Positions 18,598-49,254 of a stretch of DNA of 52,647 bases are shown here, piece by piece (the first letter of the stretch is position 1; each line of letters opens with the position of its first letter). The stretch spans positions 1 to 52,647 of the forward strand of contig CALWNN010000051.1 of assembly GCA_944382845.1 (NCBI GenBank), in the 5' to 3' direction. Source of the DNA: an uncultured Clostridia bacterium (lineage in GTDB: Bacteria; Bacillota; Clostridia; Oscillospirales; Ruminococcaceae). The notes under the pieces were generated by a model. That model made no database searches. It was not told where the DNA came from and saw only the letters and a program-made list of their open reading frames with translations. The position numbers were made by a program, and so were the translations under genes.

Positions 18598-18730
18598 AAA
18601 TCGGAGCAAAGCGTGAAAAAGACGTCTGCTTATCAGCATAGATGTCTGCTTATCAGCATAGACGTCTGCTTGTCAGCATAGACGTCTGCTTATCAGCAGA
18701 CAGGCTTAATCACGATTGCGACTTGGTTAT
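18598..18730 (+). repeat. Modular hairpin repeat, copy 1 (four 20-bp units)
   Basis: Left module TTTAAATCGGAGCAAAGCG begins here. Four exact-length 20-bp units follow (18621, 18641, 18661, 18681), each with a TGCT-N4-AGCA hairpin core; the last closes as TCTGCT/AGCAGA. Then comes GGCTTAATCACG and the right end CGACTTGGTTAT. It sits between xylA and the next gene of the xyl operon and would be transcribed. The multi-hairpin right half found in copies 2 and 4 is missing. Confidence 0.88.
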
Positions 18731-18781
18731 AAGCAGGGCTTCCCATTGTTGTATAACATTTTAAGAAAGGAGCTATATTTT

Positions 18782-19390
18782 ATGGACACAAGCGCAATGT
18801 TTAAAATTTCCTACGGGCTTTATGTTCTGACGGCAAAATGCGGACCGTTTTCTAACGGCTGTATAATAAACACCCTCCAACAAGTGACAAATACCCCGAA
18901 CCGTGTGTCTGTCACTGTAAACAAAACAAACTATACAAACTATATGATAAGGCAAAGCGGAAAATTCAACGTTTCAACAATCGATGAAAGCAGCGATTTC
19001 GACCTTTTCAAGAATTTTGGCTTTGTAAGCGGACGATGGGAAAACAAGTTTCACAGTTTTCCTTCAATATGCGCCGCAAACGGTATTCCTTACGTTAAGA
19101 AATCCTGCTGTGCTTACCTTAGCTGCAAAGTGGTAAAGGAAATCGACCTTGGAACTCATACAATGTTCATTGCGGAAGTTACTGACGGCGAGGTGCTTTC
19201 CGATAACGCCCCCATGACCTATGCGTATTATCACGCAAAGGTAAAGCCGCAGCCCCAAGTAAAGGCTGAGGACAACAAGGAAAAATGGGTGTGCAACATC
19301 TGCGGCTACGTTTACGAGGGACATCTTCCCGATGATTTTATCTGCCCTCTCTGCAAGCACGGTGCGGCAGACTTTACAAGAGTAAGCTGA
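18782..19390 (+). CDS. Flavin reductase-rubredoxin fusion (Hrb-like)
   Basis: The start at 18782 has AAAGGAG 9 nt upstream, giving 202 residues. Residues 1-150 are a flavin reductase-like FMN-binding split barrel (MFKISYGLYVLTAKC, then TNTPNRVSVTVNK). Residues about 163-202 are a rubredoxin domain with CNICGYVYEG and CPLCKHGA, the two CxxC motifs that bind one iron. The layout is that of high-molecular-weight rubredoxin, which passes electrons from NAD(P)H to flavodiiron oxygen or NO reductases in acetogens and clostridia. Its place between xylA and xylB is unexpected; it may give oxidative-stress protection, or the gene may simply have been inserted there. Confidence 0.88.
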   Translation: MDTSAMFKISYGLYVLTAKCGPFSNGCIINTLQQVTNTPNRVSVTVNKTNYTNYMIRQSGKFNVSTIDESSDFDLFKNFGFVSGRWENKFHSFPSICAANGIPYVKKSCCAYLSCKVVKEIDLGTHTMFIAEVTDGEVLSDNAPMTYAYYHAKVKPQPQVKAEDNKEKWVCNICGYVYEGHLPDDFICPLCKHGAADFTRVS

Positions 19391-19413
19391 AAAAATAAAA
19401 AGGAGTTTGAGTT

Positions 19414-20937
19414 ATGGCATATGTAATTGGCGTTGACTGCGGAACAAGCGGCACAAAAACAGTACTCTTTGACGAAAGTGGAAATGTTATCGCTTCACAT
19501 ACCGTAGAATATCCCATGTACCAGCCCAAAAACGGCTACGCCGAGCAGGATCCTGCCGACTGGGAAAATGCGATGGTGGAAACAATAAAAGCTGTAATGG
19601 CTAAAAGCGGAGTTAAAAAAGAGGATGTCAAGGGAATCGGTATTTCCGGACAGATGCACGGACTTGTCATGCTTGACAAGAATAACAAGGTGCTTAGAAA
19701 TTCTATTATCTGGTGCGACCAGAGAACTGCCGCTCAGGTAAGCTGGATGAACGAAAATATAGGCGAAAAAAAGCTTATTGAAATTACTGCAAATCCTGCC
19801 CTTACAGGCTGGACGGCGGCAAAAATCCTTTGGGTAAAGGACAACGAGCCGGAAATTTTTGAAAAGTGCAGACATATTCTTCTTCCAAAGGACTATTTAA
19901 GATTTATCCTGACGGGAGAATACGCAACGGAAGTTTCCGACGCTTCAGGTATGCAGCTTCTTGACGTTCCGGGCAGAAAATGGAGCAGTGAACTTTGCGA
20001 AAAAATGGGCATAGATATGTCGCTTTTAGGCAAAGTCTACGAGTCCTGCGAAATTACGGGAGTACTCACCGGCAAAATGGCTGAGGCTCTGGGACTTGAA
20101 AAAGGAACACCTGTTGTAGGCGGCGCAGGGGACAATGCCGCTGCGGCTGTGGGAACGGGAGTCGTTGAGGACGGAAAGGCTTTTACGACTATCGGCACAT
20201 CCGGGGTTGTATTTGCCCACACCTCTTCAATTTCAATCGACCCTAAGGGAAGAGTCCACACCTGCTGTGCGGCTGTTCCGGGAAGCTGGCACGTTATGGG
20301 CGTTACACAAGGAGCAGGTCTTTCCCTCAAATGGTTCAGGGACAATTTCTGTTCGGCTGAAAAGGAAACGGCAAAGCTTATGGGAGTTGACGAATACTAT
20401 CTTATGGATAAGGAAGCCGAAACTATCCCTGTGGGAGCTGACAGGCTTTTGTATCTGCCTTACCTTATGGGCGAAAGAACCCCTCACCTTGACCCCGACG
20501 CAAGAGGAGTTTTCTTCGGGCTTTCCGCCATGCACACCAAAAAGCATATGCTTCGTGCAGTGCTTGAAGGAGTTTCATATTCTCTTCGTGACTGCGTTGA
20601 GGTGTTCAGGGAGATGAACATAAGCGTTTCAGACATGATGGCTTGCGGTGGCGGCGGAAGCTCACCTCTGTGGCGTTCAATGCTTGCCGACCTTTATGAT
20701 TGTCCGGTAAAAACGGTTGCTTCAAAGGAAGGTCCGGCTCTGGGAGTTGCTCTTCTTGCAACAGTAGGCGCAGGTATCTACTCGTCTGTTCCGGAAGCCT
20801 GCAAAGCAGTTATAAAAACAGACAAGATCCAGCAGCCTACGGCTGAAAACGTGCCTGTATATGAAAAATACTACAGGCTTTACACTCAACTCTATCCTGC
20901 TCTCAAAGAGCAGTACAAGACCCTCGGCTCTATCTGA
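19414..20937 (+). CDS. xylB: Xylulokinase
   Basis: Phosphorylates D-xylulose to xylulose 5-phosphate with ATP, feeding the pentose phosphate pathway. The 507-residue length is typical for the FGGY family. Motifs are VIGVDCGTSGTKTVLFD (ATPase phosphate 1), GISGQMHGLVMLD, IIWCDQRTA, PVVGGAGDNAAAAVGTG and FTTIGTSGVVFAHT, with the C-terminal CGGGGSSPLWRSMLADLYD family signature. AAGGAG lies 8 nt upstream of the ATG. It lies 23 nt after the rubredoxin fusion gene, and the operon ends at a strong terminator. No xylose transporter or XylR is in the window. Confidence 0.96.
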   Translation: MAYVIGVDCGTSGTKTVLFDESGNVIASHTVEYPMYQPKNGYAEQDPADWENAMVETIKAVMAKSGVKKEDVKGIGISGQMHGLVMLDKNNKVLRNSIIWCDQRTAAQVSWMNENIGEKKLIEITANPALTGWTAAKILWVKDNEPEIFEKCRHILLPKDYLRFILTGEYATEVSDASGMQLLDVPGRKWSSELCEKMGIDMSLLGKVYESCEITGVLTGKMAEALGLEKGTPVVGGAGDNAAAAVGTGVVEDGKAFTTIGTSGVVFAHTSSISIDPKGRVHTCCAAVPGSWHVMGVTQGAGLSLKWFRDNFCSAEKETAKLMGVDEYYLMDKEAETIPVGADRLLYLPYLMGERTPHLDPDARGVFFGLSAMHTKKHMLRAVLEGVSYSLRDCVEVFREMNISVSDMMACGGGGSSPLWRSMLADLYDCPVKTVASKEGPALGVALLATVGAGIYSSVPEACKAVIKTDKIQQPTAENVPVYEKYYRLYTQLYPALKEQYKTLGSI

Positions 20938-20946
20938 AAAACAAAA

Positions 20947-20999
20947 CAAGCATAAAAACAAACTGCCTTTTCACCAAAGAAAAGGCAGTTTTTGCTTGT
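20947..20999 (+). terminator. Terminator of xyl operon
   Basis: AAACTGCCTTTTC (20960-20972) pairs perfectly over 13 bp with 20979-20991 across a 6-nt loop and is followed by TTGC. An outer CAAGCA/TGCTTG stem extends it. It lies between xylB and the convergent cardiolipin synthase gene and may act on both strands. Confidence 0.88.
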
Positions 21000-21022
21000 G
21001 TGTTCTTTAATATTCAGTTAAG

Positions 21023-22573
21023 TCAAAGCAGTGGCGCAAGTATTTTTAGCACCGAACCTAATATTTTATTTATAATCGGACGCTTGCGGCAATATTCGTC
21101 GTCTATCTCCCTGCAATCCTTTAAGGTCTCAAGAAAATCAGACTTGACATCCTTTACACATTCACATCCATAGAGCAAGGTTGCACATTCAAAGTGCAGA
21201 TAAAGGCTTCTGTAGTCAAGATTTATAGATCCTACAACTGCGGTCTTGTCGTCGCTTACAAAATTCTTACTGTGGATAAATCCCGGCGTATATTCGTAAA
21301 TTTTAATTCCCTTGTCAATAAACGACTTGTAATAGGACTGACCGATATAAAAAACGTAGCGCTTATCAGGTATCCCAGGCATTATTATACGCACGTCTAC
21401 TCCGCTTTTTGCCGCATAAGTCAAAGCGGAAATAAGCTCGCTTCCGGGAATAAGATACGGCGTTGTAATATAAAGATAATCCTTGGCATTGTTTATAATA
21501 TCAAGATAAACAAGCTCTCCTACAGGCTCGTTATCAAGCGGAGAATCAGAATACGGCATTACATATCCTTTGCAATTATACTGAGGAGAATTATTGGCTG
21601 AGGGAGAAAGCTTTGTGTAATCTTCAGTTTCCTTTTCATCAAGCTCCCAAAGCTGCAAGAACATTATGGTATAGCTCCAGACAGCCTCCCCTTTTATCAT
21701 AATCGCAGAATCCTTCCACTTTCCGAAACGGTTGATTGCATTTATATACTCATCTGCAAGGTTTATTCCTCCAGAAAACGCAACCTTACCATCGATTACA
21801 ACTATTTTACGGTGGTCACGGTTGTTCTGAGATGTGGAGAGGAACGGGGTGAATTTATTAAATATCTTTACCTTAATTCCTATTTTGCGAAGTTTTTTGT
21901 GATAGCCGTCCGGAAGAAACATCTGGCTTCCGAAGCCGTCGTATAAGAGTCTTATATCTACTCCCGAATCGGCTTTTTCCTTGAGAATGTCCAAAATTTC
22001 TCCCCACATTTCCCCTTCCTTGATAATAAAATATTCAAGAAATATAAATTTCTCCGCCTTTTTAAGTTCCTCCTTCAATGCCGCAAACTTGTCCTCTCCC
22101 CAAGGGAAATATGTAACCCTTGAGTTTTTATATGTGGGATAGTGACCCCAGTCCCACATATATTTTGAAGTTTTAAAAAGATTATCGTCAGTCGCCTTAA
22201 CTTCCTTTGCAAGCTCCTCCGGATAGGAAAGAAAGTCCTTTGTATCGGCAACTTTTTTGTGATGCCTGCTGATAAAAAGAGCAGTGGGTGCTTTTACAAA
22301 GATGTAGAATATAGCAGTAAAGAACGGTACCAGAAGAAGAGGAATTATCCATGCTATTTTATAAGCAGGATTTTCATTGCGGTTTAAAATGTGAATAACA
22401 AGCACAAGACTTATTGCAAGAAAGATCATATTTATAAAGCGGTAATATTCAGCAAGAACAAAAAATGCGCCGAACAATATAAAAAGCTGGAGCGCAAGAA
22501 GAATCACAACAACAAACTTACGACTGAAAACAAATTTTAATATTCTGCTTAACTTGTGCAAAAGCTTAAACAT
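21023..22573 (-). CDS. cls: Cardiolipin synthase
   Basis: A membrane phospholipase D-family enzyme that joins two phosphatidylglycerol molecules into cardiolipin and glycerol. The 516-residue length is typical. The N terminus has membrane segments (FVVVILLALQLFILFGAFFVLA, then LVLVIHIL and IIPLLLVPFFTAIFYIFV). Two HxKxxxxD motifs are present: HRKIVVIDGKVAFSGG near residue 255 and HSKNFVSDDKTAVVGSIN near residue 435. AAAGGAG lies 6 nt before the ATG. The gene stands alone between the xyl operon terminator and the 3' end of the dnaJ operon. Confidence 0.95.
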   Translation of the reverse strand: MFKLLHKLSRILKFVFSRKFVVVILLALQLFILFGAFFVLAEYYRFINMIFLAISLVLVIHILNRNENPAYKIAWIIPLLLVPFFTAIFYIFVKAPTALFISRHHKKVADTKDFLSYPEELAKEVKATDDNLFKTSKYMWDWGHYPTYKNSRVTYFPWGEDKFAALKEELKKAEKFIFLEYFIIKEGEMWGEILDILKEKADSGVDIRLLYDGFGSQMFLPDGYHKKLRKIGIKVKIFNKFTPFLSTSQNNRDHRKIVVIDGKVAFSGGINLADEYINAINRFGKWKDSAIMIKGEAVWSYTIMFLQLWELDEKETEDYTKLSPSANNSPQYNCKGYVMPYSDSPLDNEPVGELVYLDIINNAKDYLYITTPYLIPGSELISALTYAAKSGVDVRIIMPGIPDKRYVFYIGQSYYKSFIDKGIKIYEYTPGFIHSKNFVSDDKTAVVGSINLDYRSLYLHFECATLLYGCECVKDVKSDFLETLKDCREIDDEYCRKRPIINKILGSVLKILAPLL

Positions 22574-22662
22574 TTTTATCTCCTTTACCGGTTAATAATT
22601 GTACATATACGCTTATTTTAACACATCAAAAAATATTTTTCAAGTACCGACAGCAAAAATAA

Positions 22663-22691
22663 AAACCCCAACCACGTTATAATTGGGGTTT
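22663..22691 (-). terminator. Terminator of hrcA-grpE-dnaK-dnaJ operon
   Basis: On the minus strand AAACCCCAA and TTGGGGTTT arms (9 bp, 11-nt loop) are followed by TTTTTATTTTTG. It lies beyond repeat copy 2, so that repeat is part of the 3' untranslated region of the dnaJ transcript, in antisense orientation. The rest of the 322-bp gap 22574-22895 is the cls upstream region. Confidence 0.85.
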
Positions 22692-22870
22692 AAATCGTCG
22701 CCGAGGAGCAAAGCTCCTCAGTTTTTCAGCGGTGGATTAAAACCCCCACCGAAAAACTGAATGGAACCCTGCCTCCTATTGGAGGCAGATCATCCCATAG
22801 GAGGCGGACCCGCCTAATATGAGGCGGACCTGCCGAATACTCGGCAGGGGGACATCGGCGACTTGGTTAT
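22692..22870 (+). repeat. Modular hairpin repeat, copy 2
   Basis: It begins TTTAAATCGTCGCCGAGG and ends ACATCGGCGACTTGGTTAT; the GTCGCCGA/TCGGCGAC ends are complementary. In between are hairpins GAGGAGC/GCTCCTC, CAGTTTTTC.../...GAAAAACTG with an inner GGTGG/CCACC, CTGCCTCC/GGAGGCAG, repeated GGAGGCGGACC/GAGGCGGACC strings and CCTGCCGA/TCGGCAGG. The 20-bp tandem units of copies 1 and 4 are absent. Confidence 0.86.
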
Positions 22871-22895
22871 ATTTACCCGGCGTCAGACTTACCGG

Positions 22896-24047
22896 TTATT
22901 TGAATTTCTCTTTTAACTTTTCAAAAAAGCTTTGTCTTGTGATGTAGTTTTTCTGCTCTACCGACTTGTCAAATTCACGAAGAAGCTTTTCCTGCTCCTT
23001 GCTTAAATTCTTTGGAATCTCAACATTTACCTTTACATAATGATCTCCCTTATCGGGTCGGCGGAGATTTTTAATTCCACGTCCCTTAAGGCGGAATACT
23101 GTTCCCGACTGAGTGCCGGCAGGAATGTTGTATTTTACCTTGCCGTCTATGGTAGGAACGACTATCTCATCTCCAAGGGCGGCTTGCGCAAATGTAATAG
23201 GAACCTCTGTCCATACGTCGTAACCGTCACGTTCAAAAATAGGATCGGGCCGAACTGTAACCGAGATGATAAGATCTCCCGAAGGTCCGCCGTTTAGACC
23301 GTTGTCTCCTGCTCCCGAAAGTCTTGTTACCTGACCGTCGTCAATTCCTGCGGGAATATTTACGTTAAGCTTTGCCGCTTTTCTTACCCTGCCGTTTCCG
23401 CCGCAGCTCTTGCAGGGCTTGTCAACAATTTTTCCCTTGCCCTGACATTTTGAACATACCTGAGTTGACTGCATTGCGCCAAACGGAGTACGTTGGGTAA
23501 CAGTTACCTGTCCGGTTCCGTGACAATCCGGACATATCGTGGGACTTGATCCCGCCGCAGCGCCTGTTCCGTTACAATCGGGACACTTTTCCATTCTGTT
23601 TACTGTAACGGTAACAGTCTTTCCCTTGCAAGCTTCCATAAAGTCAAGAATTATGTTTGTTCTTATGTCGCCGCCACGCTTCGGAGCGTTGGGATTTGCA
23701 GCCCTTCTCGAGCCGCCGAATCCGCCGCCAAAGAAACTTTCAAATATATCGCCCAAGTCGTCAAAGCCGGAAAATCCGCCGAATCCGCCCGTGCCTGCCT
23801 GACCTGCTCCGTAATTGGGATCGACTCCCGCAAATCCGAACTGATCGTATTTTGCCTTTTTATCCTTATCCGAAAGAACTTCATAGGCTTCATTTACTTC
23901 CTTGAATTTCTCCTCGGCTTGCTTGTCGTTAGGGTGAAGGTCGGGGTGATACTGCTTTGCAAGCTTTCGGAAGGCTTTTTTTATCTCATCGTCGGAAGCA
24001 GACTTTGAAACTCCTAAAACTTCGTAATAATCTCGTTTTTCAGCCAT
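22896..24047 (-). CDS. dnaJ: Chaperone protein DnaJ
   Basis: The 383-residue co-chaperone stimulates DnaK ATPase and binds unfolded protein. The J domain (residues 5-70) has the HPD motif (YHPDLHPND); a Gly/Phe-rich stretch ([11 protein letters not shown]) follows. Four CxxCxGxG zinc motifs are present ([32 protein letters not shown]), then the C-terminal substrate-binding domains. All catalytic and structural landmarks of a type I DnaJ are present. It is the last gene of the CIRCE-controlled operon, 72 nt after dnaK. Confidence 0.97.
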
Positions 24048-24071
24048 AAATATTACTCCCTTTATACACCG

Positions 24072-24105
24072 CTAAACCGCAGTCCTGTCGGGGGCTGCGG
24101 CTTAG
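24072..24105 (-). other. Hairpin in dnaK-dnaJ intergenic region
   Basis: An 11-bp stem (CTAAGCCGCAG with CTGCGGTTTAG on the minus strand, one G-U pair) and a 12-nt loop lie between dnaK and dnaJ. No T-run follows, so it is not a classical terminator. It may mark RNA processing or protect the dnaK message and so set the dnaK:dnaJ ratio. Confidence 0.6.
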
Positions 24106-24119
24106 AGTATGATTTAAAA

Positions 24120-25967
24120 TTATTCAGCGTCTGTAAATTCAGCGTCGATAACATCGTCTGAACCGTTAGAAGCAGTGCCTCCTGCTGCCTGACCGGAAGT
24201 TCCCTGACCTGCCGTACTCTGCTGAGTCTGAGCTGCCTGCTGGTAAACCTTTGTTGCGATCTGCTGGAATTCGCTTTCAAGTTCCTGCTGCTTTGCCTTG
24301 ATTATCTCAATGTTATCGCCCTTGAGAGCTTCTTTAAGTGCGTCTATCTTAGCGGTAACGGAAGCCTTTTCCTCTGCCGATACCTTGTCACCAAATTCAT
24401 TAAGAGCCTTTTCACACTGGAATACCATCTGATCTGCTGCGTTTCTTGTGTCAACAGCTTCCTTCTTCTTCTTGTCCTCTTCGGCAAAAGCTTCAGCTTC
24501 CTTAACAGCCTTATCGATATCCTCCTTGGACATATTGGTTGAAGAAGTGATAGTGATATCCTGTTCCTTGCCTGTTCCTAAATCCTTTGCAGAAACGTGA
24601 ACAATACCGTTTGCGTCAATGTCAAAGGTTACTTCGATCTGAGGAACTCCTCTCGGAGCGGGAGCGATACCGTCAAGACGGAACATACCAAGCTGTTTGT
24701 TGTCTTTAGCAAATTCTCTTTCGCCCTGGAGTACGTTAATATCAACGGCAGACTGATTATCAGCGGCAGTTGAGAATATCTGAGATTTCTTTGTAGGAAT
24801 TGTTGTATTTCTTTCAATGATCTTTGTGCATATGCCGCCCATTGTTTCAAGTCCCAGTGAAAGGGGAGTTACGTCAAGAAGGAGAAGTCCGTCCTTAACA
24901 TCGCCGGCGAGAACACCTGCCTGATATGCAGCGCCAAGTGCTACACACTCATCGGGGTTGATGCCCTTGAAGGGTTCTTTTCCGATAAACTTCTTAACAG
25001 CCTCCTGAACTGCAGGGATTCTTGAAGAGCCGCCTACCATAAGAACCTTTTCAAGATCCTTTGGTGAAAGTCCGCTGTCTGAAAGTGCCTGACGTACAGG
25101 ACCCATAGTTGCTTCAACAAGGTCTGCTGTCATTTCGTTGAACTTAGCCTGTGAAAGGGTAAGTTCAAGGTGCTTAGGACCTGTTGCGTCCGCTGTGATA
25201 AACGGAAGGGAAATAGTTGTCGTAGGAGTTGAAGAAAGCTCGATCTTAGCCTTTTCAGCGGCTTCCTTCAAACGCTGCATAGCCATTTTGTCGTTTGAAA
25301 GGTCAACTCCCTCGCTCTTTTTAAATTCAGCTATCATCCAGTCGATAATTCTCTGGTCGAAGTCGTCGCCGCCCAGGTGGTTATTACCGGCAGTAGCAAG
25401 AACCTCAGTTACGCCGTCGCCCATTTCAATGATAGATACGTCGAAGGTTCCTCCGCCCAAGTCGTAAACCATTACCTTCTGATCTTCTTCCTTGTCGATT
25501 CCGTAAGAAAGAGCCGCAGCGGTAGGTTCATTTATAATTCTTCTTACATTAAGACCTGCTATCTGACCTGCGTCCTTTGTAGCCTGTCTCTGAGCGTCTG
25601 TAAAGTAAGCGGGAACAGTAATAACTGCGTCTGTTACCTTTTCACCCAGGTAGCTCTCAGCGTCTGCTTTAAGCTTCTGAAGGATCATTGCAGAAATTTC
25701 CTGAGGAGTATATTCCTTTCCTCCCATTTTTGCCTTATAGTCGGTGCCCATGTGTCTTTTGATTGAAATTACGGTATTGTCGTAATTTGTAACAGCCTGT
25801 CTTTTTGCCACCTGACCTACAAGTCTGTCGCCGGTCTTTGAAACGCCTACAACAGAAGGAGTAGTTCTTGCACCTTCGCTGTTAGGGATAACTACTGCTT
25901 CTCCGCCTTCCATAACTGCAACGCAGGAGTTAGTTGTACCAAGGTCTATACCAATAATTTTTGACAT
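24120..25967 (-). CDS. dnaK: Chaperone protein DnaK (Hsp70)
   Basis: The ATG at 25967 is used because AAAGGAT sits about 7 nt upstream; an in-frame ATG nine bases earlier overlaps that site. The product has 615 residues. Nucleotide-binding motifs are [27 protein letters not shown] and [14 protein letters not shown]; the linker [13 protein letters not shown] leads into the peptide-binding domain, and the tail is rich in Gln and Gly ending in the acidic [11 protein letters not shown]. It is the central chaperone that refolds proteins with GrpE and DnaJ. It lies 45 nt after grpE in the same operon. Confidence 0.98.
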
Positions 25968-26012
25968 ATAAATCATCCTTTCAAGTGTTGTTTCTTATTT
26001 TAATTCAATTTT

Positions 26013-26615
26013 TTATGGATTTGCAACGCATACCATTGCATATCTTATGACTTTTCCGCCTATTTTATAGCCTTTCTGAAAGACCTGAGCCACAACGTTT
26101 TCTCCAAGCTCTGCGTCCTCTGTCTGGCTTACGGCGTTTGCGACATTAGGGTCGAAAACCTCTCCCGTAGGATCTATCACTTCGACTCCGAGTTTTTTAA
26201 GCATTTCGCCAAACTGATTAAATATCATCGCAACTCCCTGCTTGTAATTTTCATCGGCTGTTTCCGCATTGAGCGCCCTTTCAAAGTTATCAAACACGGG
26301 AAGTATCTCCGCAAGAGTATTTCCTGTAACAGTAGCCTCAAGCTCAACCCTTTCCTTTGCGCTTCTCTTTCTGAAGTTATCGTATTCAGCCAAAAGTCTT
26401 AAATACTTGTCCTTTTGCTCTTCAAGCTCCTTTGAAAGTTGTTCCTCCTTACTTTCTTTTGTTTCTTCTTTCTTTTCTTCTTTTTCTTCTGTGTTTTCTG
26501 TTGATTCCTCTATAGCTTCTGTGGTTTCCGGTTTTTCTTTTTCTGAATCCTTCTGTATGTTTTCTTCATTCTCCTTTATTTCTTCTGTTTTGTTCTGATT
26601 TGGGTTACTGTTCAT
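26013..26615 (-). CDS. grpE: Nucleotide exchange factor GrpE
   Basis: Promotes ADP release from DnaK. The second of two adjacent ATGs (26615) is preferred, with GGAGG 6 nt upstream; the product has 200 residues. A long low-complexity Glu/Lys-rich N-terminal region (residues 10-70) precedes the coiled coil (YLRLLAEYDNFRKRSAKE). The conserved C-terminal beta domain carries VFDPNVANAV and VFQKGYKIGGKVIRYAMVCV. The start overlaps the end of hrcA by 11 nt, so the two are translationally coupled. Confidence 0.96.
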   Translation of the reverse strand: MNSNPNQNKTEEIKENEENIQKDSEKEKPETTEAIEESTENTEEKEEKKEETKESKEEQLSKELEEQKDKYLRLLAEYDNFRKRSAKERVELEATVTGNTLAEILPVFDNFERALNAETADENYKQGVAMIFNQFGEMLKKLGVEVIDPTGEVFDPNVANAVSQTEDAELGENVVAQVFQKGYKIGGKVIRYAMVCVANP

Positions 26616-27636
26616 CATTCTCCTCCTCGTCATTTTCTGAAAGCATTTCGGAAATCTTATCCGAAAGGTATTCAATATAAGGAATGAACTTCCTATAATC
26701 TATTCTCATGGGTCCTATAAGCCCAAGAGTTCCTATCTGATGTCCCTTTTTGCTGTAAGGGGAGGTTATAAGACTTGAATTGTTTATAACAAAGCTGTCC
26801 GATTCGGGTGAAAACATAACGTGAAGTCCGCTGAAGGACTCGTCTAAGAATTTTGCTATCTCAGTCTTGTTGTCAAGAAAGGTTATGATCTCATTCTGAC
26901 TGTACTGGTCGCTGGCAATAAGATTTGTTTCACCTGTTACCTTTACTTTTCTTCCGCTCATTTCACGGGACATATTATAAATTTCCGCAACAAGCGGAGA
27001 AAGGGTAAGCATATATGTTCCAAGAGCCTCTTCAAGCTTTTTGAGCATCTCCTCCGAAAGGTCGTTTACTGCGATCCCCTCAAGGTTTTCCGCCATGAAA
27101 TTTGAGAAAAATTCAAGTTGCTTATCCGTAAGGTCAACCTGAAGTCTGCAAACCTTATTTTTTATCGAACCGCTTGAGGTCACCATTAAAATAAGGTACA
27201 TTCTTTTTCCCGTCGGGATAATTTCCACCTTGGAGATTATCGAAAACTTTGGCGAGATGTTTGAAGCCACCGCCGCGCACTTTGTTACTTCCGCAAGCGC
27301 CGCTGTTGCAGAGCTTACTACTTCGTCCTCAGTCGCAAACTCCTCCGGCATCATTGAATCTATAGCGTCCATTTCTTCCTTTGAAAGAGGACTTTTTTCA
27401 ATAATATTGTCAACGTAAAGTCTGTATCCCTTATAGGTAGGCACTCTTCCCGCCGAGGTGTGGGGCTGTTCAAGATACCCCTGCTTTTCAAGCTCAGCCA
27501 TTTCATTGCGTATGGTCGCCGAAGACGCCTTTACATAATTCATGATTGTTTTTGAACCTACAGGCTCGCCTGTGACAATATACTCGTCAACCACTGCCAA
27601 AAGGATCTTTAATTTTCTGCCGTCCAGTTTGCTCAC
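26605..27636 (-). CDS. hrcA: Heat-inducible repressor HrcA
   Basis: Repressor that binds CIRCE and, with GroEL, shuts off chaperone operons at normal temperature. The N-terminal winged helix is visible (RKLKILLAVVDEYIVTGEPVGSKTI, ASSATIRNEMAELEKQGYLEQPHTSAGR VPT across residues 7-65) and is followed by the GAF-like and C-terminal domains (GTLGLIGPMRIDYRKFIPYIEYLSD shared end). The frame opens at GTG 27636, but GGAGG touches that GTG. A CTG at 27627 would have ideal 8-nt spacing, so initiation at a non-AUG codon near 27627-27636 is likely. It is first in the operon. Confidence 0.96.
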   Translation of the reverse strand: MSKLDGRKLKILLAVVDEYIVTGEPVGSKTIMNYVKASSATIRNEMAELEKQGYLEQPHTSAGRVPTYKGYRLYVDNIIEKSPLSKEEMDAIDSMMPEEFATEDEVVSSATAALAEVTKCAAVASNISPKFSIISKVEIIPTGKRMYLILMVTSSGSIKNKVCRLQVDLTDKQLEFFSNFMAENLEGIAVNDLSEEMLKKLEEALGTYMLTLSPLVAEIYNMSREMSGRKVKVTGETNLIASDQYSQNEIITFLDNKTEIAKFLDESFSGLHVMFSPESDSFVINNSSLITSPYSKKGHQIGTLGLIGPMRIDYRKFIPYIEYLSDKISEMLSENDEEENDEQ

Positions 27637-27665
27637 CTCCGGACCGATTTCATTTACCTGATTAG

Positions 27666-27744
27666 CACTTCGGGTCCCGAAGTGTTAGCACTCATTCTTC
27701 CTGAGTGCTAATTATAGTTTAATACCTTTTTATAAATATGTCAA
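27666..27744 (-). promoter_or_regulatory. hrcA operon promoter with perfect CIRCE
   Basis: CIRCE TTAGCACTC-N9-GAGTGCTAA is exact at 27685-27711. The promoter on the minus strand is TTGACA (27744-27739), 17-bp spacer, TAAACT (27721-27716), with a TATAAT immediately after, so the start site falls within CIRCE. A separate 19-bp palindrome (CACTTCGGG-T-CCCGAAGTG, 27666-27684) adjoins CIRCE on its downstream side, in the 5' leader. Confidence 0.95.
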
Positions 27745-27845
27745 GGAAAAAGTCAACGAATTTTTCTTCTTAATTCGGCTATATTTTATGTAACTTGCAC
27801 AACAATATTCTTTTTACAATTAAAAACATCATCAGAAACAGGTTT

Positions 27846-27959
27846 TTGGAAGCAAAGCAAGACCCACGCCCACCGGGAGGAAGGCGTGGGGTCAATGGAC
27901 AGACTTTGGCGGCAGACCTGCCGAATATTCGGCAGGGGGGACATCGGCGACTTAGTTAT
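27846..27959 (+). repeat. Modular hairpin repeat, copy 3
   Basis: The left end is weak (GGAAGCAAAGC, compare GGAGCAAAGCG). A GACCCACGCC/GGCGTGGGGTC hairpin and CCTGCCGA/TCGGCAGG precede the right end GACATCGGCGACTTAGTTAT. It occupies much of the 301-bp gap between the hrcA promoter and the 3' end of the PH-domain gene; the rest is AT-rich sequence without visible features. Confidence 0.8.
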
Positions 27960-28012
27960 TCTGTTACGCAATGAGAATCCATGTCAACAAAATTCCGCTC
28001 CGCCGTTTTAGC

Positions 28013-39995: not shown

Positions 39996-40054
39996 ACATT
40001 TTCCTCCCATATAATTTCGTTATCATAACGTTTAATAATATTACCGATAAATAA

Positions 40055-40083: not shown

Positions 40084-40274
40084 TAGATTTTGTAAATTTT
40101 CACGGTAAACGTCCAATTTTTCAGCAGTTTTATGATTTTAGGTCTTAAAAACCAACCTTTATTATTACAAACGCTGAACCAAAAGTCCATCTCTTACCGT
40201 CACAGTCGTCAAAGGCGGCACAAGCCGCATAATCAGGGACTTATCCGAATAGCGTAAACCCTTTTAGCCTTTGC

Positions 40275-41441: not shown

Positions 41442-41480
41442 TTTACATATACCCCCATTTATTAATTTATAAATCAAATA

Positions 41481-42755: not shown

Positions 42756-42773
42756 AATTGCTCCCTCCTCAGA

Positions 42774-45497
42774 TCATCTGCCGCAGCACTGCTTGTATTT
42801 CTTGCCGCTTCCACAAGGACACGGATCGTTTCTTCCGACCTTTTTGCCAACTGTCCTTCCGCCTTTAAGGGAAGCGTCTGCGGAAACAGGGTTTGCCTTT
42901 AACACCTGTTCTCTTTTAGGCTGTTCGTTTTTCTGAACTCTTACGGTAAACATCATTCTTACGGTGTCTTCGCAGATCGAAGCTACCATTGCGTCAAACA
43001 TATCAAAGCCCTCGATACGGTATTCAACAACAGGATTTTTCTGACCGAAGGATCTCAACTGGATTCCTCTCTTAAGTTCGTCCATATCGTCAATATGAGC
43101 CATCCACTTTGTATCAACGACCTTAAGAAGAACTACTCTTTCAACCTCTCTCAAAACTTCCGGAGTAAGCTCCTGCTCACGGGCAGCATACTTATCCATA
43201 GCCCTCTTAGTGAGCATATCTATGATATCCTGCTTCGAGATATCGTTAAGTTCCTGAGTGGTATATCTGAAGTCGTCCTCTGTTGTAAAAAGTCCGAAAA
43301 GGGAATCTCTGAGTCCCTCAAGGTTCCAGTTATCATGGATATCGTCGTCAAGAAGGTAAGCGTTTACCGTATTCTGAACGTAATCCTTTATCATCTTGAC
43401 AATATACTCGTGAACGTCGTCGCCGTCAATTACCTGATTTCTCTGTCCATAGATGATCTCACGCTGAGTATTCATAACGTCGTCGTAGTTAAGAACGTTC
43501 TTTCTGATGTTGAAGTTTCTTCCCTCTATCTGTTTCTGGCTTCGCTCTATGACTTTCGTAAGAATCTTAGCCTCGATAGGCATATTTTCGTCAACTTTAA
43601 GAGTGTTCATCATAGCGGTAACTCTGTCACCGCCGAAAAGACGCATAAGGTCGTCCTCAAGAGAAAGGTAGAAACGGCTTTCTCCCGGATCTCCCTGACG
43701 TCCCGAACGTCCTCTTAACTGGTTGTCGATACGTCTTGACTCATGTCTTTCCGTGCCGATTATGAAAAGACCTCCGGCTTCTCTTACTGCAACAGCCTTT
43801 TCACTTACTTCTGCGTTGAATTTTGCCAGAAGTTCCTTATAGACTTCTCTTGCCTTCAGGACCTCCTCGTTTTCCGTCTCCGCATAACCTGTGGCGTCAA
43901 CGATGATTTCTTCCGGAATCTCCTGCTTTCTCATCTGAGCAACAGCCATAAACTCGGCGTTACCTCCAAGCATTATGTCCGTTCCACGTCCTGCCATGTT
44001 TGTAGCAATGGTAACAGCGCCAAGCTGACCTGCCTGCGCAACGATCTCCGCTTCCTTTTCATGGTGCTTAGCGTTAAGAACGTTGTGCTTGACTCCCTTG
44101 TTTTTAAGAAGTCTTGAAAGGATTTCCGATTTTTCAATTGAAACAGTACCCACAAGCACAGGCTGACCCTTCTTGTGGCACTCGATTATCTGTTCAATAA
44201 CAGCGTTATATTTTCCCTTTTCGGTTTTATAAACCACATCCGAGTGATCCACCCTGATAACAGGCTTATTTGTGGGAATTTCGATAACGTCGAGCTTATA
44301 GATCTCTCTGAATTCGTCCTCTTCGGTAAGAGCAGTACCTGTCATACCCGAAAGCTTGTTATATAGTCTGAAATAGTTCTGGAATGTAATGGTAGCGATG
44401 GTTTTGGATTCTCTTGCGACCTTAACTCCTTCTTTGGCTTCAATTGCCTGATGAAGCCCATCGTTAAAACGTCTGCCTATCATGATACGTCCTGTAAATT
44501 CGTCAACGATAAGCACTTCGCCGTCCTTTACAACATAGTCCGTATCTCTTTTCATAACGCCGTTTGCCTTTATAGCCTGATTTATATGGTGGAGAAGGGT
44601 CATATTTGCGGCGTCCATAAGGTTTTCAACATTAAATGCTTTCTCAGCCTTTGCAACACCCGATTTTGTCAGAGTTGCGGTCTTTGCCTTTTCATCGATT
44701 ATATAATCTCCGTCAACCTGGTCGTTATCAGCCTTATCGTCCATTTCAACAACTACATACGGCTTCAAGGATTTTGCAAATCTGTCGGCATACTGGTAAA
44801 GCTCAGTTGACTTGTCACCGGGACCTGAAATGATAAGAGGTGTTCTTGCCTCATCAATAAGGATAGAGTCAACTTCGTCTACGATGGCAAAGGCATGACC
44901 TCTCTGAACTCTGTCCTTCTTATAAATTACCATATTGTCACGGAGGTAATCAAATCCGAATTCGTTATTTGTTCCGTATGTGATATCGGCGTTATAAGCG
45001 GCTTTTTTCTGTTCATTAGTCATTCCCGCAAGGACAACGCCTATAGAAAGTCCGAGAAAACGGTAGACTTTACCCATTTCCTCTGACTGGAATTTAGCAA
45101 GGTAGTCGTTTACTGTTACAACATGGACTCCCTTTCCAGCAAGAGCGTTCGCATACGACGCAAGGCAGGCGACAAGGGTTTTACCTTCACCTGTTTTCAT
45201 TTCGGCAATTCTTCCCTGATGAAGAACGATAGCGCCGATTATCTGGACAGGGTATGGTTTTTTGCCAAGTACTCTGTAAGCCGCTTCACGGCAGACAGCA
45301 AGCGCCTCGGGAAGAATTGAGTCAACTGTATCAAGCTCCTCAAGTCTATCTTTAAAAATATCAGTCTGCTTTCTGAGCTCGGTGTCAGACATAGCCTGAT
45401 ACTTAGGTTCAAGGTCGAGAACCTGCTGTTTTATAGGCTCAATTCGTTTAAGTTCTTTTTTGGAGTAGTTTCCAAACATTGCTTCTATAAGTCCCAT
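42774..45497 (-). CDS. secA: Protein translocase subunit SecA
   Basis: ATP-driven motor that pushes preproteins through SecYEG. ATG 45497 is preferred over 45503 because GGTGG then lies 7 nt upstream; the product has 907 residues. Motifs are [13 protein letters not shown] (Walker A), [20 protein letters not shown] (DEAD region), [10 protein letters not shown] and [20 protein letters not shown] (helicase motif VI). The C terminus ([22 protein letters not shown]) is the zinc-binding SEC-C motif that contacts SecB-type partners or ribosomes. Repeat copy 4 lies just upstream of the gene. Confidence 0.98.
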
Positions 45498-45532
45498 TTT
45501 CATTCCACCTTTATTTTCGTAGACAATTATTT

Positions 45533-45759
45533 AAATCGGAGCAAAGCGTGATAAGGATGTCTGCTTTTCAGCAAAGTTGTCTGCTTTTCAGCAAAGTTGT
45601 CTGCTTTTCAGCAGACAGGCTTAATCACGTTGCGACGATTGCAATCGTCGCCGAGGAGCTTTGCTCCTCAGGGTTTCAGTGGGGGATTAAAGCCCCCACT
45701 GAAAAACTGAATGGAACCCTGCCGAATACTCGGCAGGGGGACATCGGCGACTTGGTTAT
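45533..45759 (+). repeat. Modular hairpin repeat, copy 4 (longest, 227 bp)
   Basis: Left module TTTAAATCGGAGCAAAGCG; three 20-bp units at 45556, 45576 and 45596 with TGCTTTTCAGCA cores; GGCTTAATCACGTTGCGAC, roughly complementary to the left module. Then come the right-half hairpins GAGGAGC/GCTCCTC, TTTCAGTGGGGG/CCCCCACTGAAA and CCTGCCGA/TCGGCAGG, and the right end ACATCGGCGACTTGGTTAT. It contains every module seen in the other copies. It lies upstream of secA in the 570-bp gap 45498-46067. Confidence 0.9.
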
Positions 45760-45992
45760 CCGTAAAAAAAAATTACAAATATTATTATACAACACTTCAC
45801 AGATAAAGTCAACCGTATACAAGCCATATCAGACAGTCAGCATTTAATTCCGGCTTTTTCGTTTTTCTTTCTCTCTTTAGGTTTTTCGTCTGAACAAGGA
45901 GCAAAAATCACAATTTGAAACAAAGAATCAAAAATCACGGCAAAACAAGCACAGCAAAGCTCTTTTTACCGTAAATTGTAATCCACAAATTA

Positions 45993-46037
45993 AAAACCCC
46001 TCCCAAAGGGAGGGATTCCCTCTCAAAGGAGGGGTGA
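45993..46037. repeat. GC-rich nested inverted repeat
   Basis: CCCCTCC and GGAGGGG arms enclose CCCTCCC-AAA-GGGAGGG, in the gap between repeat copy 4 and the lipoprotein gene. Similar CCTCCC/GGGAGG strings are known as intergenic repeats in gut Clostridia. It is about 30 nt past the lipoprotein stop (minus strand), followed by AAAAACCCC-type sequence, and might act as its terminator. The rest of 45760-46067 is AT-rich with no gene. Confidence 0.55.
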
Positions 46038-46067
46038 AAAGGTCGGGGGAAGCTTTTCCGCAAATTG

Positions 46068-46661
46068 TCATTCCGCCAAAGAAAAAGTTACGGTTACATT
46101 TCCGTCGCCCAAGGCTTTTCCCCAGCCGGTCAGGTCGTCTATCTTCCCAAGCCGAGTGTAACTCCATGAATTGGAGCCGTAGAAAATAACGATCTGATTT
46201 CCCTGATACAGCACAATATCTCCTGCCTGCGTCGTAGTCTGGCTGTTGACGGTGGGGAGGCTCGTGCCGAGAGAACCCACCTTTTCAAAGCCGGAATAGT
46301 CGCTCATCTGAATTGTCACAGGCTTATCCCTCATCATTTCAACAAAAGCGTCTACCGCTTTATTTTTTTCCAAGGTTGCCGTAAAGGTATTGTTTCCAAC
46401 TTGTACATTCATTTTCATTGTAACGCTCTCCTCTCCGTCTGTGGTAATTTCCGGACTTTGTTCGGTTGAAGTCTGCTCCGTTTCGCTTATCGCAGCTTCG
46501 TCGGTTACAGAATTATCGATTGATACTTCCGCGCTGTTTGCGGAATAATCTGTACTCGGCTCATCCGAAGCTGAATTTTGTACTTCTCCACAGCCTGCCA
46601 ACAGCATCACGCCGATGGCACAAATTAATACCCGAAAGATTTTTGTTTTTTCCTTTCTCAT
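46068..46661 (-). CDS. Lipoprotein with cyclophilin-like domain
   Basis: A 197-residue protein with a lipoprotein signal peptide (IFRVLICAIGVMLLAGC, lipobox LAGC), a Ser/Thr/Glu-rich linker (residues 25-75) and a cyclophilin-like fold domain of the type found in small bacterial hypothetical proteins (VQVGNNTFTATLEKNKAVDAFVEMM, GDIVLYQGNQIVIFYG, SYTRLGKIDD). Prolyl isomerase activity has not been shown for this subfamily as far as I know. It begins 8 nt after the PatB-like gene and is last in the operon opposite the LysR gene. Confidence 0.85.
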   Translation of the reverse strand: MRKEKTKIFRVLICAIGVMLLAGCGEVQNSASDEPSTDYSANSAEVSIDNSVTDEAAISETEQTSTEQSPEITTDGEESVTMKMNVQVGNNTFTATLEKNKAVDAFVEMMRDKPVTIQMSDYSGFEKVGSLGTSLPTVNSQTTTQAGDIVLYQGNQIVIFYGSNSWSYTRLGKIDDLTGWGKALGDGNVTVTFSLAE

Positions 46662-46669
46662 TGTTCCGC

Positions 46670-47863
46670 TTACACCCTTTCTGAATTTTTTATTATGTCA
46701 ATGGAATTATATTCAAGTACCCCCTGTTTTAAGCGGGACAATCCATCTTGAACCCTTGCGCGCGGGCAGGCAACATTCATCCGCAAAAAAGAAACTCCGT
46801 TCCCCCCGTACCGGTCGCCTTCAGAAAGATACAAGCCTGTCTTCCGGCGTATAAAAGAAGCAATTTTTTCACCGTCTCCTCCCAGTCCGGAACAATCCAG
46901 CCAGAGCAGATATGTCGCTCGGGATGGCACAACGCTTATATTGGGAATTTCCCTGTTGATAAAGTCCCTGACAAGCGTTTTGTTCTCATAAATGTATGCT
47001 CTCAGTTCGTCAAGCCACTCTCCTCCCTCGGTAAACGCCGCCACCGTCGCAGGAATTGCAAAATCATTCGGCTCAGCAGCTTCGTCCGTATTAAGCCCTC
47101 GCCAGACCTTATGGCGCAGGTTGCTGTCGGGAACTGCCACAGCCGCCGTTTGCAAACCTGCCAGATTAAACGCCTTGGTAGGCGATATGCAGGTTATGCT
47201 GTTATCCCGGCATACATCTGAAACCGAAGCGAAAGGAATATAACTGTATCCCGGATCGGTCAGGTCGCAATGTATTTCATCAGAAACCACCACCACATGA
47301 TATTTATAGCAAAGCTCGCCGATTTTCGCCAGAGTATCCCTGTCCCAGATCTTTCCCACAGGGTTATGAGGGTTGCACAAAAGCATAAGAGTTACCTGAG
47401 GGTCTGAAAGGGCTTTCTCCAATCGGTCAAAATCGATATCATATTCACCGTTTTTATATTCCAGCGGACATTCCCGTACCAGCCTGCCATTGTTCATTAT
47501 TGAGTTAAAGAAGATATTATAAACAGGCGTCTGTATCAGCACTTTTTCACCCGGTGTCGTCAGCTTTCGGACAATGCTTGAAATAGCGGGAACAACGCCT
47601 GTGCAAAAGACCAGCCAGTCCTTTTCAATTTTCAATCCGTGACGTTCATTCCACCAGTTCATATAGGCATGATACCATTCATCTGTCACAACGGAGTATC
47701 CAAACACACCATGGTCGGCTCTTTTCTCAATGGCTTTCCGAATCTCCGGAGCGGTGGGAAAATCCATATCAGCCACCCACATGGGAAGTTCATTGTCTGC
47801 CACATCCCATTTTAAAGAACCCGAGTCCTTACGGTTGACTACCGTATCAAAATCATATTTCAT
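46670..47863 (-). CDS. PatB/MalY-type aminotransferase (cystathionine beta-lyase)
   Basis: A fold-type I PLP enzyme. The start at 47863 (MKYDFDTVVNRK) is preferred because AAAGGA then lies 9 nt upstream; the product has 397 residues. Motifs are DNELPMWVADMDFPTAPEI, CNPHNPVGKIW, VVVSDEIHCDL and SPTKAFNLAGLQ, where Lys binds PLP, plus RMNVACPR. Family members cleave cystathionine or cysteine C-S bonds (PatB, MalY). The gene is third in a four-gene unit, after the DUF3737 gene. Confidence 0.93.
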   Translation of the reverse strand: MKYDFDTVVNRKDSGSLKWDVADNELPMWVADMDFPTAPEIRKAIEKRADHGVFGYSVVTDEWYHAYMNWWNERHGLKIEKDWLVFCTGVVPAISSIVRKLTTPGEKVLIQTPVYNIFFNSIMNNGRLVRECPLEYKNGEYDIDFDRLEKALSDPQVTLMLLCNPHNPVGKIWDRDTLAKIGELCYKYHVVVVSDEIHCDLTDPGYSYIPFASVSDVCRDNSITCISPTKAFNLAGLQTAAVAVPDSNLRHKVWRGLNTDEAAEPNDFAIPATVAAFTEGGEWLDELRAYIYENKTLVRDFINREIPNISVVPSRATYLLWLDCSGLGGDGEKIASFIRRKTGLYLSEGDRYGGNGVSFLRMNVACPRARVQDGLSRLKQGVLEYNSIDIIKNSERV

Positions 47864-47917
47864 AAAGCCCATTCCTTTACGTTTTTTCTTGGGTTTTCTT
47901 CATTCCCGAAAACCATT

Positions 47918-48784
47918 TCATGCGCACTCCTGTTCATCTGCTTTGCAAATTATCCTTGTCTTTTCAGGGTCAACCTTATCCTTGTCCAAAATAAGTTCTC
48001 CGATTGAGTCTGCGCAAATCTGACCGCCGGAAGGGTTCATCACGCTGTCAATCTTCCCGTCAATCCGGGCGTCTACGGTGGAATACTCAAAAGCAAGCGT
48101 AGTATTGATCAGTTTGCAGTTTTTCATAACAAGATTTTCAATATAGCACATTCCCTGAAGACTTTCAATTGTACAGTTTATAAGGGTAAGGTTCTTGGCA
48201 TTCCAACCAAGATATTCACCGGAAATAAAGGAATCATAAACGGTTATGTTCTCGCTGTTCCAAAAGGCGTCCTTGGATAAAAGACGAGAATTATGAATTT
48301 CCGCATTTCTAACACCGTCAAAGGAATAATTTCCGTAAAGAGTAAGGTCACGGATAACCATGTTCTTACTGTTCATGGCGAAATAATCCCCTTTTGCCGT
48401 AACTTTATCAAGCCGTACCCCGTCACACTGCCACAAGGTTTCCTCAGCGTTCGGAAAAGAAACGTTCTTAAGCGTCACGTCATGACAACGGCGGAAATTC
48501 TTTGGCGCTTCAATGGCGCAATCCTCTACTGTGATGTTGTCTGTGTACCATACTCCTGCACGACCCATTTCAAACCATGTACAGTTTTTTACCAGAATGT
48601 TTTTTGCATACCAAAGAGGATACTTCCACTTAAACATACTTCCGTATAATTCGATATCACGGCTTTCCTTTAAAGGGGATTCCCCCTCGTCAAAGACAGT
48701 ATCGTAAATCTTAAGGTCCTTTGCCATAAACAATGGACGTTCGCCTGTGTAATAACCGCGATTTATTTCTCTTTTCTCACTCAT
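47918..48784 (-). CDS. DUF3737 right-handed beta-helix protein
   Basis: A 288-residue protein built of short repeats of about 20 residues with hydrophobic and Asn/Ser/Cys positions (IYDTVFDE, IELYGSMFKWKYPLWYAKNI, LVKNCTW, ITVEDCAIEAPKNF, LINCTIESLQG), the pattern of a right-handed parallel beta-helix. It belongs to DUF3737, which often sits next to PatB/MalY-like and LysR genes in Firmicutes. No catalytic residues are assigned. AAAGGAG lies 9 nt before the ATG. Its function is not known. Confidence 0.87.
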   Translation of the reverse strand: MSEKREINRGYYTGERPLFMAKDLKIYDTVFDEGESPLKESRDIELYGSMFKWKYPLWYAKNILVKNCTWFEMGRAGVWYTDNITVEDCAIEAPKNFRRCHDVTLKNVSFPNAEETLWQCDGVRLDKVTAKGDYFAMNSKNMVIRDLTLYGNYSFDGVRNAEIHNSRLLSKDAFWNSENITVYDSFISGEYLGWNAKNLTLINCTIESLQGMCYIENLVMKNCKLINTTLAFEYSTVDARIDGKIDSVMNPSGGQICADSIGELILDKDKVDPEKTRIICKADEQECA

Positions 48785-48823
48785 AAAATTCAGCTCCTTT
48801 TCTCAGTTACCTATAAATAATAA

Positions 48824-49057
48824 TCATATTGCAATTTTATTTCGTTCAATCTGATAAACCAGATAATCCAGGCAATCGATTCTCTTCTGCTCAATATGTA
48901 TCTTATCAAGCAACTCCCTGCGATGCTGAGAGAGAATCCTAAGCTGTTCTTTGGAAGCTCCGTTTTTCATGCACTCCATAAACCGGTCTATTGTATCTTC
49001 ATTACAGCCTGCGTCCTTCAGATTCTGAATGACAGCCTCTTTAGAATCATACCTCAT
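48824..49057 (-). CDS. Small conserved helical protein
   Basis: A 77-residue, mostly alpha-helical protein (SKEAVIQNLKDAGCNEDTIDRFMECMKNG, then a long coiled-coil-like helix QLRILSQHRRELLDKIHIEQKRIDCLDYLVYQIE). The helix resembles the dimerization end of MerR-type regulators (RxxLLDxIHxxQKxIDCLDYL), but no DNA-binding domain is present. AAGGGA precedes the ATG. It is first in the operon divergent from the LysR gene and may be a small regulatory partner. Confidence 0.8.
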   Translation of the reverse strand: MRYDSKEAVIQNLKDAGCNEDTIDRFMECMKNGASKEQLRILSQHRRELLDKIHIEQKRIDCLDYLVYQIERNKIAI

Positions 49058-49125
49058 ATTGTTCCCTTCTTTTCTAAAAAGCAGTAAGTTGGTGATCAGG
49101 CTTGATGACCTTTTCCCCTTAATTT

Positions 49126-49254
49126 AAATCGGAGCAAAGCGTTGATAATTACATCTCCTTCGGAGCTATACATCTCTTTCAGAGCTGTGCTTAATCACGT
49201 TGCGACGAAAAGCAACCTGTCGTTTAGGCAGGGGGACATCGGCGACTTGGTTAT
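49126..49254 (+). repeat. Modular hairpin repeat, copy 5
   Basis: Left module TTTAAATCGGAGCAAAGCG; two 19-bp units at 49151 and 49170 with CTCC-TTC-GGAG and CTCT-TTC-AGAG hairpins in place of the TGCT...AGCA cores of copies 1 and 4; GCTTAATCACGTTGCGACGA; then the right end ACATCGGCGACTTGGTTAT. It fills much of the divergent region 49058-49366 between the small helical protein and the LysR gene. Confidence 0.86.

Follow-up and report, generated by a model that had tools for sequence, protein, structure and literature searches.

Modular Hairpin Repeats of a Ruminococcaceae Genome: a Probable Family of Non-Autonomous Mobile DNA

Introduction

Insertion sequences (IS) of the IS200/IS605 family, as the available extracts of three sources describe them (PMC7290912, PMC5371812, PMC6006769), lack terminal inverted repeats (TIRs), make no target duplication, insert 3' of a tetra- or pentanucleotide, carry terminal hairpins, and have an orientation that follows replication. 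The palindrome-associated transposable elements (PATEs) have a definition, in the excerpts of PMC3119063, that fits the behavior of the repeat family described below; the BOX elements of Streptococcus pneumoniae share its layout (excerpts of PMC3049150); and the REP, BIME, and REPIN sequences with TnpAREP (RAYT) are high-copy intergenic hairpins in mosaic arrays, linked to the Y1 transposase family (extracts of PMC6006769). Here we analyze a family of modular hairpin repeats seen in a stretch of 52,647 nucleotides (the window), contig CALWNN010000051.1 of the assembly GCA_944382845.1 of an uncultured Clostridia bacterium from the Ruminococcaceae. An earlier note on this DNA had pointed to five copies, compared them with BOX elements, and proposed either a non-autonomous transposable sequence or a structured RNA family.

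The family probably consists of non-autonomous mobile DNA, most likely moving as single-stranded DNA (ssDNA) in the manner of IS200/IS605 and resembling the PATEs in this respect. It has a one-sided target, hairpins at its ends, no target duplication, and an orientation linked to replication, a combination that agrees with the IS200/IS605 mode in the extracts cited above.

Copy Number and Distribution

The host genome (G000; 2,135,633 bases in 93 contigs) was searched with patterns for the right end of the repeat. A 24-mer with up to three mismatches and a 20-mer with up to two gave 130 matches each, and a 19-mer with up to two gave 135, compared with none in the controls (the reversed pattern in the case of the 24-mer); the family is thus not a product of chance. 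The earlier note had made its proposal depend on further copies in the host, and about 135 right ends are present. By contrast, the four congeners in the five-genome genus search (80-99% complete) contain no copy of the family, their only right-end match being a single two-mismatch one in G122, which suggests that the family spread within the lineage of the host.

Among 198 sampled genomes of the same taxonomic family, eight have a right-end match with up to two mismatches, and two of these, the host and G163, are counted as carriers. G163 has six matches (two exact, two with one mismatch, and two with two). The other six genomes, G122 among them, have a single two-mismatch match each; no left end was found within 300 bases upstream in the five inspected (all but G180). 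At the class level, an exact 16-mer occurs in one of 391 sampled genomes, the host itself. A scan of GTDB contigs returned 34 stretches: 31 from CAMMVF01, an uncultured Clostridia bacterium (G198), two from CALXIQ01, an uncultured Ruminococcus whose sequences are identical to the G163 loci, and one that has no left end and is taken as chance. G198 contains 66 exact right-end 15-mers, and 59 of its relatives contain none. The carriers among the genomes searched are therefore the host, the low-copy family member G163, and one other high-copy genome, G198.

No match was obtained with copy 4 of the window in the phage and plasmid collections searched, or with the right-end 20-mer and the left end in viral contigs. 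The shorter 15-mer matched 94 viral stretches; 80 loci were scanned, and none of the 32 contexts inspected was an element. In Rfam, the window matched only a tRNA elsewhere at the gathering cut-off, and copy 4, with E-values up to 1 allowed, gave one match (E 0.52; score 14.9 bits, the cut-off being 42), so that the family has no counterpart among the described RNA families there. The literature searches gave no match to three end sequences and, by topic, nothing on this family. The family appears to be new, as a member of an already known kind of element.

Ends and Modular Interior

The anatomy of the repeat was derived from 838 kb of host sequence. When no more than one mismatch is allowed, this sequence contains 82 right ends; logos were built from 79 of them and, for the left end, from 58 copies. 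In the left-end consensus TTTAAATCGGAGCAAAGC, conservation starts at the first T of TTTAAATC, with no conserved base ahead of it, and the right-end consensus ACATCGGCGACTTRGTTAT is conserved through TTAT and a following A. The element spans TTTAAATC to CTTRG and adjoins host TTATA. The logos of the two ends differ, with no terminal inverted repeat between the consensus ends; an inner 8-bp inverted repeat, GTCGCCGA/TCGGCGAC, occurs in some copies. Near-terminal palindromes are seen by eye at both ends of many listed copies, and also in the ssDNA fold of copy 4.

Between the ends, copies are assembled from exchangeable hairpin cassettes. In order, these are a left stem with zero to four TGCT/AGCA units or zero to five CTC/GAG units, a palindromic joint, a GAGGAGC hairpin, a TTTCAGTGGGGG hairpin, and zero to five right-hand hairpins before the right end. 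Among 56 host copies the three unit counts range over 0-4, 0-5, and 0-5, and there are 48 distinct lengths, compared with 14 among 38 G198 copies; most copies are 70-330 nt long. Only five of 71 strict copies lie within an open reading frame (ORF) of at least 90 codons, the others lying between ORFs. We propose that only the ends need to be kept, which leaves the interior free to vary. The cassettes of about 20 nt would gain and lose copies and be exchanged between elements, plausibly by slippage or strand switching at the hairpins.

By pattern, 24 of the 82 strict right ends have no left end and 24 of 92 left-end matches have no right end, many of these cases being merely degenerate, due to chance, or cut by the end of a stretch. 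By eye, about seven copies look truncated at the left and about nine at the right. The former would suit a SINE-like element that spreads by way of an RNA copy and target-primed reverse transcription, and each high-copy genome does contain a group II intron with an open reverse transcriptase (RT) frame (L183 on contig C60 of the host and L182 on contig C3 of G198), whereas no such RT was found in G163 or the four congeners. Nevertheless, the right end is missing from copies about as often as the left, on which ground RNA-mediated copying was rejected; moreover, no right end is present at the intron loci, the two RTs are only 50% identical, and G163 carries copies despite having no RT match. 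We regard a SINE-like origin as very improbable.

A separate observation concerns host contig C7, where an element-like sequence near position 19203 (L115) has two inverted left ends, possibly as a result of recombination within the GGAGC hairpin.

Target Site and Junctions

Both ends were identified in 135 copies (62 in the host and 73 in G198), a set in which some of the shortest matches, a few that measure as little as 22 bases, may be false. TTAT stands at the end of 131 of them and is followed by A in 124 (54/62 in the host and 70/73 in G198). The target duplication that the earlier note proposed to look for is not seen in these flanks: none of the 135 copies has one of at least five bases outside TTAT, and a single 6-base match appears if TTAT is counted.

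The sequence TTA is common to both ends in 93 of 94 copies, which taken alone could be a 3-bp duplication. This is what would be expected of an element similar to the miniature inverted-repeat transposable elements (MITEs), moved in trans by a DDE transposase or a serine or tyrosine recombinase with a short core such as TT or TTA; the inner inverted repeat of some copies and the locus with two inverted left ends also suit it. The nested copies contradict a TTA duplication. In three head-to-tail junctions of the host, GACTTGA (contig C3), GACTTGG (C79), and AACATGG (C38) directly precede TTTAAATC; a TTA duplication predicts GGTTAAATC, and all three show GGTTTAAATC or GATTTAAATC instead. On C3, a fresh full-length copy ending in CTTGA-TTAT stands directly behind a decayed one, and taking out the fresh copy restores the older right end. 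The GGTT common to the two right ends leaves the position of the cut open to a shift of as much as 2 nt, a register that is compatible with a TT core. The differing consensus sequences of the ends and the conserved flank on one side only also speak against a MITE-like element, which we consider an unlikely explanation, albeit one to be taken seriously.

Further junctions come from interrupted and paired copies. In G198, a copy interrupts another repeat, giving an occupied site GAGTA-element-TTATA-GTAAAATTAT, and an uninterrupted paralogue, L045, reads GAGCC-TTATA-TTGAAATTAT. On host contig C44, two copies in opposite orientation have GGTTATAACC in common. Exact empty sites were sought in the congeners, where intergenic DNA is too diverged (matched stretches 65-82% identical), and a search with separate flanks for empty paralogues returned only the neighborhood of the nested copy on C3. 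The repeat represented by L045, L066, and L071 of G198 (AAATTGTGCGAG...CTCGCACAATTT) is another hairpin repeat, with three copies in the stretches examined, one of them interrupted by the element.

Three other readings of the insertion sites were tried and rejected. A top-strand-active model with target TTTA predicts GGTTAT-AATCGG junctions, and host sequence follows the GGTTATAATC matches inspected (four of five in G198 and one of two in the host). A preference for hairpins was not seen when 93 insertion sites were compared with 818 intergenic TTATA controls for spanning stems of at least 6 (p 0.75). As for insertion within genes, the frames obtained by joining the flanks were by eye mostly neighboring genes.

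Orientation and Replication

For 70 host copies in blocks longer than 15 kb, orientation was compared with the GC skew of the flanking 10 kb in both directions. The top strand, that is, the one ending in GGTTAT, is opposite the G-rich strand in 56 of the 70 (p 4e-7), with 12 of 13 contigs in agreement by majority; for the majority coding strand, the corresponding number is 53. In G198, 31 of 40 copies in 8-kb loci are opposite the G-rich strand (p 0.0007). No bias is seen among two-mismatch right ends (15 to 16), a good part of which are probably due to chance. The G-rich strand was taken to be the leading strand, as is usual for Firmicutes; on this assumption, the bottom strand of the repeat corresponds to the sequence of the lagging-strand template. 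The bias is present both with mixed neighboring genes (19 to 6) and where the two neighbors lie on the leading strand (28 to 4).

A polarity seen in two genomes could in principle reflect a chromosome-organizing or replication signal of the host with a selected orientation. The absence of copies from the four congeners, the decayed and nested copies, and the other orientation of 14 of the 70 host copies make this scarcely credible. For a MITE-like element, the bias would come from a clamp interaction or from selection.

Proposed Movement and the Search for an Enzyme

In the ssDNA transposition that we favor, a transposase of the HUH (Y1) type, supplied in trans, would recognize the bottom strand (5'-CCAAGTCGCC ... 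GATTTAAA-3') at hairpins close to either end, cut it out of the lagging-strand template, and place it 3' of a 5'-(T)ATAA-3' target. No duplication would arise in this way, and the orientation would be linked to replication. The dispersal of the family, its sharp ends, the conserved TTATA on one side, the lack of duplication, the strand bias, the nested junctions, and the cassette variation are observed, whereas the ssDNA intermediate, the Y1 enzyme, the identity of the active strand, and the route by which cassettes change are inferences.

A number of observations weigh against this proposal. The larger G198 set, on shorter stretches, has a weaker bias, 47 to 26 of 73 copies (p 0.019), compared with 47 to 14 in the host scored in the same way on whatever stretch contained the copies, and copies with both neighbors on the lagging strand are split 3 to 3. 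The C38 junction may be a 32-nt slippage duplication, and the C79 junction is cut by a contig end. The junction pattern with up to two mismatches, inspected in part, is not enriched over the control (16/9 in the host, 13/12 in G198, and 5/5 in G163), so that the junction argument depends on the three host cases. Of the 90 bases in the L045 alignment (81% identity), only about 15 lie beyond the junction on its right side, and TTAT is missing at this position from L071, a second relative. Excerpts of PMC5371812 report orientation bias for other IS families as well, which a MITE-like element could share, and in those of PMC7290912, the IS605 copies of Halanaerobium have no strand preference (10 of 22 leading); the strand trait is thus not universal.

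The enzyme itself adds to these objections. No transposase gene with the ends of the family was found in the carriers examined. A search of the host with PF01797, which we presume should reach RAYTs too, gave only a broken fragment on contig C31, 37.5% identical to a TnpA of G198 over 80 residues; G163 gave no Y1 match, and neither did G122, the congener covered by the Y1 search. The lack of an intact Y1 match in the host and of any in G163 also agrees with a MITE-like element. Of the three carriers, G198 alone gave intact Y1 matches, two genes in IS605-type loci, and among seven genomes it was the only one with matches to PF07282 (TnpB); these two loci lack the ends of the family. A by-eye look for a guide tetranucleotide 5' of the hairpin foot that would match the cleavage site gave no consistent candidate. 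On the other side, the closest pair of copies is found in G198, the carrier with intact Y1 genes (98.7% identity, compared with 96.4% in the host). Metagenome-assembled genomes frequently lose repeated elements, which makes the absence of an enzyme weak evidence, and with the host assembly in 93 contigs an element encoding the enzyme could be missing. Membership in the IS200/IS605 family is unproven, the search having given no Y1 element with similar ends.

A variant of the proposal is movement as ssDNA at the replication fork through an enzyme that does not belong to the known Y1 transposases, with the cassettes serving as cargo that tunes the time spent in the folded, mobile state. It would explain the copies in G163, which has no Y1 match, and their high number in a host with a broken Y1 gene, but we consider it rather doubtful.

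Folding and the RNA Alternative

Copy 4 folds far better than shuffled sequences, with z-scores of -10.5 for the bottom strand as DNA and -9.65 for the top strand as RNA. The former suits the proposed movement as ssDNA, and the latter raises the alternative that the repeats form a structured RNA or regulatory family kept, as BOX might be, for a function in transcripts, to which their position between ORFs would also be suited. RNAalifold, applied to 40 of 43 aligned inner segments, kept 16 pairs, one of which changed on both sides. In a structure of 25 pairs that we named ourselves, 89.1% of the cells are paired, compared with 37.8-58.8% when the structure is slid and 88.0% in shuffled alignments. 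Five pairs changed on both sides (shuffled mean 3.8, reached by 126 of 500 shuffles), and there are 17 both-sided cells (shuffled mean 8.4, reached by none of 500). However, a single pair accounts for 12 of these 17 cells. The observation in the earlier note that stems change while pairing is kept holds for alternative cassettes, compensatory change within aligned stems being limited. Stem mismatches of the GT and AC types number 20 and 12, an excess that is not significant (p 0.2; 9:9 in the host and 9:3 in G198). The stems are thus kept, but these data decide nothing for RNA over DNA.

The lack of copies in the four congeners, the patchy distribution elsewhere, the widely varying interior, and an orientation that tracks GC skew even with mixed neighbors all argue against a function in transcripts, and we regard it as quite improbable. 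Of the two readings in the earlier note, the non-autonomous mobile element is thus the probable one, and the structured RNA family is weakly supported at best.

Comparison with Known Elements

The family shares with PATEs and IS200/IS605 the near-terminal palindromes, the lack of both TIRs between the consensus ends and target duplication, a non-coding length, a short one-sided target, nesting into relatives, and replication-linked orientation. Unlike them, it has an interior of exchangeable hairpin cassettes and the target (T)ATAA, and the search gave no IS605 element whose ends are related. With BOX elements it has in common fixed modules on the left and right that flank units in varying number, a mostly intergenic position, and many copies, but it has several unit types in two variable arrays, and its strand bias and junctions point to ssDNA transposition, an RNA role being weakly supported here. 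The comparison with BOX made before is accordingly apt for the layout of constant ends and variable tandem units and does not extend to the mechanism. Like REP, BIME, and REPIN sequences, the copies are intergenic hairpins at high copy number in mosaic arrays, whereas they are units with defined outer ends, in a host without an intact Y1 match. Finally, they are short, non-coding, dispersed, and presumably moved in trans like classical MITEs, but lack consistent TIRs and show no target duplication.

We suggest that this is a new family with PATE-like behavior and a BOX-like modular interior, its place in IS200/IS605 being unproven in view of the ends. Cassette mosaicism together with replication polarity in two genomes is an unusual combination. 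If the proposal is true, the family provides a natural series of more than 100 hairpin arrays with near-identical ends, which would be a test bed for the growth, shrinkage, and recombination of hairpins during replication. It would likewise offer a test of the minimal sequence needed by a single-strand transposon and a marker of replication direction for draft genomes of such bacteria. The patchy distribution among the genomes searched poses the question of how elements without an enzyme travel.

Copies in the Window and Their Surroundings

All five copies reported earlier are present in the window (Table 1) on direct reading, their left edges moved by a few bases. Four of them start at TTTAAATC, and the right ends of all five, read through TTAT, are at 18730, 22870, 27959, 45759, and 49254 as described. 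Copies 2-5 have ACATCGG before the right end, the left module TTTAAATCGGAGCAAAGCG is common to copies 1, 4, and 5, and the alternative stem types reported are real alternative cassettes. The common orientation of the five copies is part of the genome-wide strand bias. In a whole-window scan, positions 1-16000 contained no strict right end.

Table 1. Repeat copies and adjoining features in the window
Feature	Positions	Strand	Description
Interrupted terminator-like hairpin, left arm	18586-18594	+	GGGAAGTCC; by eye
Copy 1	18595-18726	+	TTTAAATCGGAGCAAAGCG as left end, four TGCT/AGCA-type hairpin units of 20 nt, GCGACTTGG as right end
Target adjoining copy 1	18727-18731	+	Host TTATA, predicted from the family target rule
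Interrupted terminator-like hairpin, right arm	18736-18744		GGGCTTCCC; by eye
Copy 2	22689-22866	+	No left cassette block; GTCGCCGA/TCGGCGAC closing stem enclosing several hairpins
Target adjoining copy 2	22867-22871		TTATA
Copy 3	27843-27955	+	Degenerate left end (~27843), unusual hairpin, typical right hairpin, right end (CTTAG)
Target adjoining copy 3	27956-27959		TTAT, next base T
Copy 4	45530-45755	+	Complete composite
Target adjoining copy 4	45756-45759		TTAT, next base C
Copy 5	49123-49250	+	Both ends present; between them two CTCC/GGAG-type hairpin units and a short right part
Target adjoining copy 5	49251-49255		TTATA

Copy 1 sits within a terminator-like hairpin. The gene upstream of it (17201-18556, plus strand), which by eye may encode a xylose isomerase-like protein, has orthologues in three congeners that are followed by hairpins of other sequence, with no element in the next 260 bases. 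Copy 2 and a copy on host contig C82 have 96.4% identity over 166 bases. Copy 4 consists of the left end, three left hairpin units, the GCGACGATTGCAATCGTCGC palindrome, and the GAGGAGC hairpin, followed by the TTTCAGTGGGGG hairpin, a CTGCCGA hairpin, and the right end.

Other repeats and features were noted nearby. Beyond copy 4, two neighboring hairpins of the CCCTCC/GGAGGG type are seen by eye at 45996-46036 and possibly represent a second repeat type. On host contig C44, near positions 27209 and 48841, there is a second repeat in which CAACTTGGATAAAATCC lies near a CGGCAGGAAAGTTCCT motif. A palindrome, TTAGCACTC-N9-GAGTGCTAA, which we take to be CIRCE-like, is located at 27685-27711 upstream of the minus-strand gene 26605-27636, and similar palindromes are found at the same place in four congeners. 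Finally, the Rfam scan identified a tRNA gene at 50335-50408 on the minus strand.

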